From positions 103,603 through 167,602 of the forward strand of contig SUZW01000001.1 in assembly GCA_015059685.1 (NCBI GenBank): DNA of 64,000 bases. Direction: 5' to 3'. Positions 29,009 to 62,626 of this stretch are shown here, one piece after another. Made by a program: the position numbers and the translations under genes. Position 1 is the stretch's first letter. Each line of letters starts with the position of its first letter. Origin of the DNA: Rikenellaceae bacterium (lineage in GTDB: Bacteria > Bacteroidota > Bacteroidia > Bacteroidales > Rikenellaceae). The notes beneath the pieces were generated by a model, which worked only from the letters and a program-made list of their open reading frames with translations, was not told the DNA's origin and did no database searches.

Positions 29009-30256
29009 CTACTTCGCCATGGCGAACTCGAAGCCTTGATACCTATCCCACTCGCCTCGTGTAAAGTCGGGTATCTCGACGGGTGCTCCACCCGCCAGTG
29101 CCGACATCTCGGTGAGCTCCACGAGTGATGACCACTCCACAGCGTCGTACACATCCATATCGAGTGGCAATCCGTTGCGCAGGCAGTATATGAGGCGGCT
29201 ATCCATCGTGTAGTCTATCCATCGTGTGCCACACAGCTCCACGCCCTTGGCCTTGTAGGCCTCGACAAATGGGTGGCGATACCTCTCGGCAAGAACCAGA
29301 CACTCCTCGCCTGCAAGTACCTCTCGACTATTTGGTGCAAAGGCGGCGTATGGCACGGGGTACTTCTGTATGTAACCCTTTGTGCCACTCAATAAGAATG
29401 AACGACTGTAGGGGCGTGGCAGGGCGATGCAGTGCTGCAGCATAATGGTGCGCCCCTTCTCGGTTGTTATTACCGAGGTGTTCATCGTGCCACGGAACTC
29501 TTCGGCCTTGCCTACACCGCGCGACGACATCGACACAAGGCTCTTCATCCTATCGCCACGATGCAGCCCGAGAGTGAGTGCCACGGGGCCAAGTCCGTGT
29601 GTGGGGTAGAAGTTGGCGATATGTGTGGCCATATACTCCACCTGCCAATTCTTCCAACGACGATGACCCTGGTCATTCGAGGATATACGCTCCCGTAGGT
29701 CGTGTATGTATGATGCCTCGGCATGAATTATATCTCCCAAAAGCCCCTCTTTGGCCATATTGAACGATGCCAGCTCGAACTCGTCGTAACAGCAGTTCTC
29801 GAGCATTATGCAGTGTCGCTGCTTGCGCTCGGCAGTATCCACCAACCGCCAGCAATCCGCTACCGACATGGCTGCAGGGACCTCCAATGCCACATGTTTG
29901 TCGCACTCCATTGCGTAGATAGCAATCTCGGCGTGGCTCAGCCAGTCGGTGCTGACATAGACCAAATCTACGCTGTCGCTCTCGCACATCGCCCTCCAGC
30001 CCGCTTCACCGAGGTATGTTTTTGGCTTTGCTCCTCCCGCCTTCTCCACAATTGCCACCGAAGCGTCGAGGTTGTCGTCGATAAAGTCACATAGAGCCAC
30101 TACCTCTGCTCCCTCGATATGGGCCATACGGTTTACCGCAAGTTGTCCTCTCGCCCCCACACCTATAAAGCCTATGCGGACACGCTCCATCGGTGCGCAT
30201 CGAAATTTCAACATGCTCTGCCGGTTTGCACTTACGGAAGAAGAGTTCTGTTGCAT
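29009..30256 (-). CDS. GH109-type Gfo/Idh/MocA oxidoreductase (alpha-N-acetylgalactosaminidase-like)
   Basis: 415 residues. The Rossmann start VRIGFIGVGARGQ binds NAD. HIANFYPTHGLGPVAL is the GH109 signature with the catalytic His, and the sugar-side EVPAAMS and GHRRWKN segments also match. GH109 enzymes remove terminal alpha-GalNAc, including from A-type blood antigens and mucin, through an NAD-dependent oxidation-elimination-hydrolysis cycle. Unlike the usual Tat-exported members, this protein has no signal peptide; it begins with a polar 20-residue stretch before MERVR. It is monocistronic. Confidence 0.85.
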   Translation of the reverse strand: MQQNSSSVSANRQSMLKFRCAPMERVRIGFIGVGARGQLAVNRMAHIEGAEVVALCDFIDDNLDASVAIVEKAGGAKPKTYLGEAGWRAMCESDSVDLVYVSTDWLSHAEIAIYAMECDKHVALEVPAAMSVADCWRLVDTAERKQRHCIMLENCCYDEFELASFNMAKEGLLGDIIHAEASYIHDLRERISSNDQGHRRWKNWQVEYMATHIANFYPTHGLGPVALTLGLHRGDRMKSLVSMSSRGVGKAEEFRGTMNTSVITTEKGRTIMLQHCIALPRPYSRSFLLSGTKGYIQKYPVPYAAFAPNSREVLAGEECLVLAERYRHPFVEAYKAKGVELCGTRWIDYTMDSRLIYCLRNGLPLDMDVYDAVEWSSLVELTEMSALAGGAPVEIPDFTRGEWDRYQGFEFAMAK

Positions 30257-30286: not shown

Positions 30287-30498
30287 GGTATTTTTTGTCT
30301 ATACTCGCTCTTTTTCGACCAAAAAGAGAGTGTTAGCACCGCCTGTGACTACAGAAAAAGGCGAGAGGTGGGATTTGTGTTATCGAAATTCAATAATATT
30401 ATTAAAATATTTTATTTTTATAATATGTTGAAAATCAGTGAAGTGTGGGTTTTGCTAAAATAAAACTAAAAAATAATTAAAAAAATTTAATTAAAAAC

Positions 30499-30529
30499 TT
30501 GCACAATCAAAAAAAAGCCATTACCTTTG
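30499..30529 (+). promoter_or_regulatory. promoter of the small-RNA candidate
   Basis: TTG at 30499-30501, a 20-nt spacer and TACCTTTG at 30522-30529. No open reading frame with a plausible start follows. Confidence 0.65.
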
Positions 30530-30535
30530 CACTCG

Positions 30536-30668
30536 AAGTTTTAAGGTTCATTTTTAGGTTAGTAGTTTTAGGTTGGTTGAGGAAATCGGAAGGTTGCGAC
30601 AATGGGTCGCTAAGACTGCGGGAGGTGCTCTCTCGTGAGTCGAATTACCTCCGAAGACCTCATTTTTT
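30536..30668 (+). ncRNA. candidate structured small RNA, about 133 nt
   Basis: The predicted transcript starts about 7 nt after TACCTTTG and ends in TTTTTT at 30663-30668. It can fold into a three-way junction: closing helix TGAGG/CCTCA directly before the T-run, hairpin GCGAC/GTCGC, and hairpin GGAGGT/ACCTCC with an inner CTC/GAG. The first 50 nt are U/A/G-rich (TTTTAGG repeats). It lacks the GGAA-AGCAG apex of SRP RNA and does not look like tmRNA or RNase P. It lies alone between divergent/convergent genes. The identity is unknown. Confidence 0.6.
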
Positions 30669-30672
30669 GTTT

Positions 30673-30792
30673 AAGACCAATTAAAAGGGTAATTTCTGCG
30701 TTACACTCGAGCGAAAAATGCTCACATACACAAAGTATGCTCCGCTTTTTCGTTATTCGTAGGCCTTGAAATTCCTCCTTTTAATTGGTCTT
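30673..30792. repeat. nested palindrome element, copy b
   Basis: Outer arms AAGACCAATTAAAAGG and CCTTTTAATTGGTCTT enclose the core GCTCACATAC-N5-GTATGCTCCGC with inner arms GCGAAAAA/TTTTTCG. It starts 5 nt after the T-run of the small RNA. Confidence 0.8.
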
Positions 30793-30847
30793 AAACTGTT
30801 TAATAGCCCCTTCTATGTCGCATTTGATTTAGCGGCCCCTATTGTGG

Positions 30848-31609
30848 TTACTCCACAACGCTGATATCATCGAGGGCGAAGTATGCCGGATGCGGGAACT
30901 CACCATTGCCGTTCCACTGCACATCGAACTTCACCTTGCTGACCTTGCCCAAGCCCATGAGGTTCCACTTCTGCCACCCATCAAAGGTGCTCTTGCCTCC
31001 CCTATAGAGGTAGAAATCGAGCGAAGCGCCCTCAATCTCGTTGCTGTCGCCATCGAGTGTATAGCCTGTGGCACGCACCCATACATCTTCGGTTGTCAGT
31101 GCCGGAATAGGGTAGGTGCCGGTAAGTCCATCTTTGGCCATGGCATACGAGTAGGCGGTGTGGGCCACCCAGGCACTCTCAATTTGGCGTGGCCCATTTT
31201 TGAAGAATATCTGTGATCGACAGTCGCCATAGGCGTTGTAGCCGTGGCATACCACGCAGTTTTTGCCCGAGTGCGCCCCTTCGGTAAATACGGTAAGTTG
31301 CGACGAGGCGGTATTTGCCGTGGTGTGGTCGGTGGTGTAGTACGATGATACAGCTACGCCTCCGCCCCAAAACATATTGTCACCATAGGTGTTGGTGAGT
31401 TCGCTGCCGAGGTCTGTTGCCTCGTCATACCAGCTGTATCCATTGCCACTATAGAGCAGCTCACCCATATATTGAGGGCTATCGACCAACGCATCCCAAT
31501 AGCTCCCCTCAAAGTCGAGCGTTACACACTTTGTATCATTGCCATTATTACCGTCGGTGCAGGCAAGCAGTGTAGCTCCGAACAACAATATCAAAACAAT
31601 CTTTTTCAC
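30848..31609 (-). CDS. DUF4465 lipoprotein
   Basis: 253 residues. The lipoprotein signal ends ATLLAC. The body matches DUF4465, a Bacteroidetes secreted beta-sandwich family: TLDFEGSYWDAL near the start, GFYW-like YSWYDEATDL, repeated short beta-strands, and the C-terminal GWQKWNLMGLGKVSKVKFDVQWN ... PAYFALDDISV. The fold is carbohydrate-binding-module-like; its ligand is unknown. The gene follows comM by 53 nt and may be read from its transcript. Confidence 0.85.
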   Translation of the reverse strand: MKKIVLILLFGATLLACTDGNNGNDTKCVTLDFEGSYWDALVDSPQYMGELLYSGNGYSWYDEATDLGSELTNTYGDNMFWGGGVAVSSYYTTDHTTANTASSQLTVFTEGAHSGKNCVVCHGYNAYGDCRSQIFFKNGPRQIESAWVAHTAYSYAMAKDGLTGTYPIPALTTEDVWVRATGYTLDGDSNEIEGASLDFYLYRGGKSTFDGWQKWNLMGLGKVSKVKFDVQWNGNGEFPHPAYFALDDISVVE

Positions 31610-62503: not shown

Positions 62504-62626
62504 AAATCGTTCTGATGAGTTCTTTTTGCACAAGCCTGCGGAGAGCAAAATGCTCACATACGCTTAAGTATGCTCCGCTTTTGCTCCCTGGCCTCGCACA
62601 AAAATAATCTCATCATAAGCGATTTT
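62504..62626. repeat. nested palindrome element, copy e
   Basis: Outer arms AAAATCG ..CTGATGAG/CTCATCAT..CGATTTT, boxes TTTTTGCAC and GCACAAAAA, inner arms GGAGAGCAAAA/TTTTGCTCC, core GCTCACATACG-N4-AGTATGCTCCGC. It starts directly after the DUF3467 stop. Confidence 0.85.

Follow-up and report, generated by a model that had tools for sequence, protein, structure and literature searches.

A conserved Rikenellaceae small RNA family with repeated unpaired 5' seeds, a candidate counterpart of FopS in the control of SusC mRNAs

Short motifs repeated in unpaired RNA are found in multi-seed or repeat sRNAs and in sponges of the CsrB type. Two small RNAs of Bacteroides are the closest described systems for the locus studied here. 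FopS represses the translation of susC mRNAs experimentally, and the protein RbpB binds its 5' single-stranded part (PMC11697453). In GibS, from B. thetaiotaomicron, the 5' seed is likewise unstructured and conserved, and start codons are where it pairs (PMC7366714).

We analysed a stretch of 64,000 nucleotides (the window) from the genome of an Alistipes-type Rikenellaceae bacterium (1.82 Mb, 87% complete). A preliminary description had noticed there an unassigned small RNA with its own promoter and a three-way-junction fold, possibly a 6S-like or a novel regulatory RNA. This overall interpretation is partly supported by our results: the promoter and the junction are features far beyond chance, and the RNA belongs to no Rfam family and has a covarying fold conserved in Rikenellaceae, as expected of a novel regulatory RNA. 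The 6S-like option found no support. The most informative part of the sRNA is an ultra-conserved unpaired 5' domain that was invisible to that first description.

A chromosomal small RNA family of the Rikenellaceae

The locus has a promoter of the sigma-ABfr type of Bacteroidota (Table 1), whose two boxes (TTG and TATCTTTG) and their spacing are kept, with a variable spacer sequence, in 164 distinct copies from relatives. In these copies, near-absolute conservation begins at GAAG, six bases 3' of the -7 box, which places the 5' end of the RNA at about position 30535. A consensus scan of the locus for sigma-70 promoters and terminators found nothing, as expected given the promoter class and the junction-type 3' end. 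The sole ORF (61 aa) starts with a TTG at 30499, inside the promoter and upstream of the transcript, and is therefore not expressed as such. The flanking genes 29009-30256, weakly similar to GFO/IDH-type dehydrogenases, and 30848-31609 both lie on the minus strand. All the descriptive details of the preliminary account that we checked proved correct.

Table 1 Features of the sRNA locus (window coordinates).
Feature	Position	Strand	Evidence or remark
Sigma-ABfr-type promoter: TTG 30499-30501, N20, TACCTTTG 30522-30529	30499-30529	+	Sequence; boxes and spacing kept in 164 distinct copies
sRNA, long class, predicted ~134 nt	30535-30668	+	Start: promoter spacing and conservation onset; end: U-run
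Unpaired 5' seed domain GAAGUUUUAAGGUUCAUUUUUAGGUUAGUAGUUUUAGGUUGGU	30535-30577	+	Near-invariant; fold z -0.05; complementary to SusC start regions
Leading variant repeat GUUUUAAGGUUCA	30538-30550	+	Missing in L342 and L343
Repeat unit 1 UUUUAGGUUAGUAG	30552-30565	+	Two units in most members
Repeat unit 2 UUUUAGGUUGGU	30566-30577	+	As for unit 1
Helix P1, TGAGG 30578-30582 with CCTCA 30658-30662, closing the 3' domain	30578-30662	+	Fold; 87.9% paired, with one-base misalignments in some rows
Helix P2, UCGGA 30586-30590 and GGU 30592-30594 with ACC 30647-30649 and UCCGA 30650-30654	30586-30654	+	96.9% paired
Hairpin P3, 30596-30600 with 30606-30610	30596-30610	+	6/7 pairs changed on both sides
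Hairpin P4, 30614-30617 with 30638-30641 and 30619-30624 with 30630-30635	30614-30641	+	8/10 pairs changed on both sides
P4 loop GUGCU	30625-30629	+	Near-invariant sequence
Terminal U-run (T6)	30663-30668	+	Sequence; T-run after P1 in most long-class relatives

A near-perfect inverted repeat of ~128 nt (GTTTAAGACCAATTAAAAGG..., fold z -9.56) occupies positions 30669-30796, right after the U-run, and resembles a REP- or MITE-like palindrome. Its core (GCGAAAAATGCTCACATAC..GTATGCTCCGC) occurs again at positions 62541-62582 of the window. Several relatives (L057, L160, L166) also have it 3' of their sRNA, at a distance of ~150 nt.

DNA searches detected the sRNA in 22 of 25 genomes of the same genus, its own included, and in none of 16 genomes from other families; weaker matches, such as those in G021 and G030 (E 1e-4 to 1e-5), covered only the promoter and were discounted. 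An exact ~35-nt pattern was present in 87 of 150 genomes of the family, belonging to 7 of its 22 genera, with zero control matches, and the named matches were exclusively to Alistipes, Tidjanibacter or Rikenellaceae. Sequence-model searches added divergent members in further Rikenellaceae genera and, outside the family, weak matches only. Most of the 62 Alistipes genomes carry one exact copy (41 genomes), 15 have two, one has three and five have none; the genome studied here has a single copy. The genes next to the sRNA vary between genomes and none is fixed, indicating that it is not the leader of one particular operon. We found no credible match pointing to a phage or plasmid origin, and a looser viral scan gave scattered matches among the matches listed. 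The sRNA belongs to a chromosomal family whose hosts are Rikenellaceae: Alistipes, Tidjanibacter and their allies. It is confirmed as real and apparently undescribed: it is absent from Rfam release 15, and a literature search found no small-RNA study of Alistipes.

An unpaired repeat array followed by one of two 3' domains

The 5' domain is an array in which a leading GUUUUAAGGUUCA(UU) precedes tandem UUUUAGGUUAGUAG units. Most members have two of these units, L153 and L323 have three, and L326 and L329 have more, with a maximum of five; the divergent members L342 and L343 are devoid of the leading variant repeat. The first 43 nt are unstructured when their fold is compared with that of shuffled sequences. 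Their invariance in the 164 copies is by construction inside the pattern used to gather them, which fixed most of the seed, and has independent support from the DNA and sequence-model searches. A segment that is unpaired and yet invariant must have a partner, be it RNA or protein. The complement of the seed domain contains ACUAACCUAAAA.

Weak matches in other families prompted us to consider the seed as a general element upstream of terminators, an idea that we rejected, as a seed 11-mer was enriched neither in Alistipes outside the sRNA nor in most other genomes. Separately, some loci of other Bacteroidales families, namely L213/L243 (G187), L214/L242 (G348) and L212 (G358), have UAGGUU-type repeats directly 5' of a terminator hairpin and are possibly further FopS-like RNAs.

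The 3' part exists in two classes. The short class, found throughout the Rikenellaceae, ends in a single terminator hairpin; the long class, to which the window copy belongs, folds into a three-way junction and was seen in Alistipes alone. In several genomes both classes are represented, by copies that a few hundred bases separate. The junction had been proposed from a predicted fold closed by TGAGG/CCTCA immediately before the T-run, and comparison of 38 distinct long sequences bears it out, compensatory changes included: 94% of the alignment cells are paired, against 34-51% in controls with slid partners, and 17 of the 30 pairs show double-sided changes. The covariation score was 0.391 vs 0.192 in shuffles, and none of 500 shuffles matched it. 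Hairpins P3 and P4 were also recovered by RNAalifold from the 38-sequence alignment, with 13 doubly changed pairs. In place of P2, which is mostly invariant and has three pairs with double changes, RNAalifold paired the conserved ACC-CC strand with the GGUUGGU of the seed; these mostly invariant columns fit either arrangement. Apart from the P4 loop, CUAAGA and UCGAA are conserved elements of the long class. The 3' 91 nt fold better than shuffles (z -3.94), and the weak value for the whole 136 nt (z -0.99, no better than shuffles) is explained by the unstructured 5' 43 nt.

A second long-class junction, truncated at its 5' end, lies at ~992-1084 of L028 (G003 contig 40), ~500 nt from a complete copy. 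It has intact P3, P4 and terminator and no seed array, so that it can be read either as a decayed duplicate or as an independent use of the junction.

Complementarity to SusC start regions and candidate function

The core of the repeat unit is complementary to AACCTA (AACCUA in RNA), a motif that we found between -45 and +18 of the start codon in 16 of 47 SusC-type genes from four Rikenellaceae genomes and in 4 of 251 other genes from one of them (Fisher 4e-11). The mean energy of the predicted duplexes with the sRNA was -20.5 kcal/mol for SusC and -15.8 kcal/mol for the other genes (MWU 1e-10). These comparisons rely on simple ORF rules for the start codons and on genes that are not phylogenetically independent. 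Dinucleotide-preserving shuffles of the sRNA (n=200) were used against composition effects: on SusC leaders the real sRNA was better than 199 of the 200 shuffles (z -3.63), and on non-SusC genes it was unremarkable (z -0.69). The predicted SusC duplexes were centred at -11 from the start codon.

We also ranked the genes in 400 kb of one Alistipes genome, a sample taken without selection. Among the best predicted targets were SusC, SusD, an alpha-galactosidase, a GH39-type enzyme, a phosphodiester glycosidase and other secreted proteins; genes with signal-peptide-like starts scored better than the remaining ones (MWU 6e-6). Seed-complement k-mers were not enriched at the start codons of all genes, either in the window or in pooled gene sets, which suggests that the targets are a subset of genes. 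Exact YWAACCTAAA sites lay upstream of an ATG in 13 of 28 cases vs 3 of 30 for the reversed-pattern control (p 0.003, own and sister genome pooled), a weaker line of evidence given that the 13 include a few doubtful ORFs and that all 28 sites come from two genomes. The genes concerned include an MFS transporter, a sodium symporter, a GH109-like lipoprotein and a phosphatidate cytidylyltransferase. In the host genome, at its 87% completeness, none of the four SusC genes has AACCTA in the regions read (the start of one, L317, was probably called too far downstream).

The motif CTAACCTAAAA was observed immediately 5' of the ATG of several genes (L229, L230, L233, L235) in G348, a genome of another Bacteroidales family with AC-rich leaders containing AACCTA and without a clear sRNA member. 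This suggests that the motif recurs in Bacteroidales 5' leaders other than those of SusC genes, and it may predate the sRNA.

The near-invariant, repeated 5' segment, complementary to the start regions of many SusC genes for sugar uptake at the outer membrane, probably blocks their translation. The reading that we favour, to which we give about two chances in three, is that the RNA is a trans-acting antisense sRNA repressing glycan-uptake mRNAs, those of SusC above all, and represents the Rikenellaceae counterpart of FopS. From the computed promoter, conservation, repeats, covarying structure and complementarity to SusC leaders, we infer its transcription, the repression, the sign of the regulation and the role of the 3' domain. 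The promoter would drive a ~134-nt transcript displaying at its unpaired 5' end a tandem seed array, UUUUAGGUU(A/G)GU plus the leading variant UUUUAAGGUUCA. This array would pair with the start-codon region, from about -40 to +15, in mRNAs with ACUAACCUAAAA-like leaders, foremost those of SusC-type TonB-dependent receptors but also of other glycan-utilisation genes, and would block the initiation of their translation. The 3' part, either the terminator hairpin or the Alistipes junction, would terminate and protect the transcript, and its conserved GUGCU loop may serve to bind a protein or a second partner. A bolder version of this scheme, which we put forward tentatively and hold to be rather less probable than its opposite, is that of a multivalent antisense RNA with tandem identical 14-nt seeds, in which seed and SusC leaders drifted together along a path separate from that of FopS; such an RNA would dispense with the RRM chaperone and, in Alistipes, would have gained by fusion a new junction domain with its own partner. 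Alistipes is a common gut genus, and the family provides a testable candidate regulator of glycan uptake there.

The same array could instead act on a protein. Tandem identical single-stranded motifs in variable number resemble a protein-binding array, and RbpB binds the single-stranded 5' part of FopS (PMC11697453), so that the UUUUAGGUUAGUAG units might bind an RNA-binding protein of the RRM type and titrate it as CsrB does CsrA, the complementarity to SusC being secondary. We consider this unlikely: a pure sponge predicts no lineage-specific match to SusC leaders, and an RRM_1 gene was found in just one (G139) of the five Rikenellaceae genomes searched; the four without it (G000, G005, G077 and G058) include the sRNA's own genome and G058, which is 99% complete and has several sRNA copies, although other RNA-binding proteins are possible partners. 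Slightly less probable still is that the function of the long class has passed to the junction, which would have a target or partner unrelated to SusC, and that the 5' domain is kept for stability or for a few targets. The existence of genomes with a long copy alone, the constraint proper to the GUGCU loop and to the CUAAGA and UCGAA elements, and the few SusC genes of the host genome, all without core site, would fit such a shift; nevertheless, the 5' domain stays near-invariant in long-class copies, from which we conclude that strong selection persists there.

The own promoter and the stable fold would also suit a 6S-like RNA, as the preliminary description suggested, another housekeeping RNA, or a cis-acting leader or riboswitch, but all of these appear very improbable. 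In the region 30400-30850 no Rfam model, 6S included, matched at the gathering score, and a scan with permissive filters up to E=10 gave nothing relevant. For 6S RNA, in addition, the expected long hairpin opened by a central bubble is absent, the anatomy being that of an unpaired seed array followed by a junction. The readings as a cis-acting leader and as a riboswitch were rejected for want of a conserved sense gene downstream, as the neighbours vary among genomes and the window's next gene is antisense. Neither Rfam nor ARAGORN revealed a tmRNA, SRP RNA or RNase P RNA, three identities that had been dismissed from the outset. The antisense reading remains the one that we prefer and compare below with known systems.

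Comparison with FopS, GibS and CsrB-type RNAs

The resemblance to FopS (RF04319, BTncRNA_FopS, from Bacteroides and other Bacteroidales) extends to the canonical sigma-ABfr promoter, the conserved unpaired 5' seed domain followed by a terminator, the existence of paralogous and sometimes tandem copies, a shared UUUaAGGUU core, and the complementarity to SusC start regions, which for the Rikenellaceae sRNA is in silico and concerns Rikenellaceae genomes other than its own. However, the Rikenellaceae seed is a tandem 14-nt repeat, it is predicted to pair with another SusC leader motif, and the sRNA usually has 1-3 copies per genome vs 12-15 for FopS in Bacteroides. The single-hairpin terminator of FopS is present in short-class relatives and is replaced by the added three-way junction in the long class, as in the window. 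FopS also forms head-to-tail tandem clusters, for instance in G382 (contig 21:15920-16857, four copies with 289-nt spacing) and G297 (contig 1:3141137-3141708), which resemble the tandem short and long copies of Alistipes.

The RF04319 model (gathering cut-off 56 bits) had no match up to E=10 in window positions 30400-30850. Its best score among the relatives was that of the divergent L326, with 24.7 bits over the full length (E 0.054 on 181 bases). It found nothing in G000, G059 and G077 and exceeded the cut-off in 44 of 247 Bacteroidales genomes; the absence of FopS from Rikenellaceae is read from these three sampled genomes and the Rfam scans of the loci. We took the FopS consensus from the Rfam alignment and collected 30 SusC leaders in two genomes that carry FopS. 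On these leaders FopS scored z -8.03, showing that the method finds the known repressor, and its value on Rikenellaceae leaders was -2.36; conversely, the value of the Rikenellaceae sRNA was -3.63 on Rikenellaceae leaders and -1.09 on the SusC leaders of FopS genomes. Each RNA thus fits best the leaders of its own lineage. This lineage-specific match suggests that seeds and target leaders co-vary and that Bacteroidales in general use paralogous antisense RNAs to control their polysaccharide-utilisation loci after transcription. Most of the tested genomes bearing the sRNA lack an RRM protein, which raises the question of how such RNAs act without RbpB.

The unstructured conserved 5' seed is also reminiscent of GibS, which differs by its two distinct seeds and another promoter class and whose Rfam family has no match at window positions 30400-30850. 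With respect to CsrB-type RNAs, the Rikenellaceae repeat differs in being complementary to mRNA leaders, and no CsrA-type array of GGA hairpins is evident. The closest parallel is FopS: the weak full-length match and the UUUaAGGUU core may reflect a distant common origin, and the Rikenellaceae sRNA, a separate family by sequence score, would nonetheless act as FopS does.
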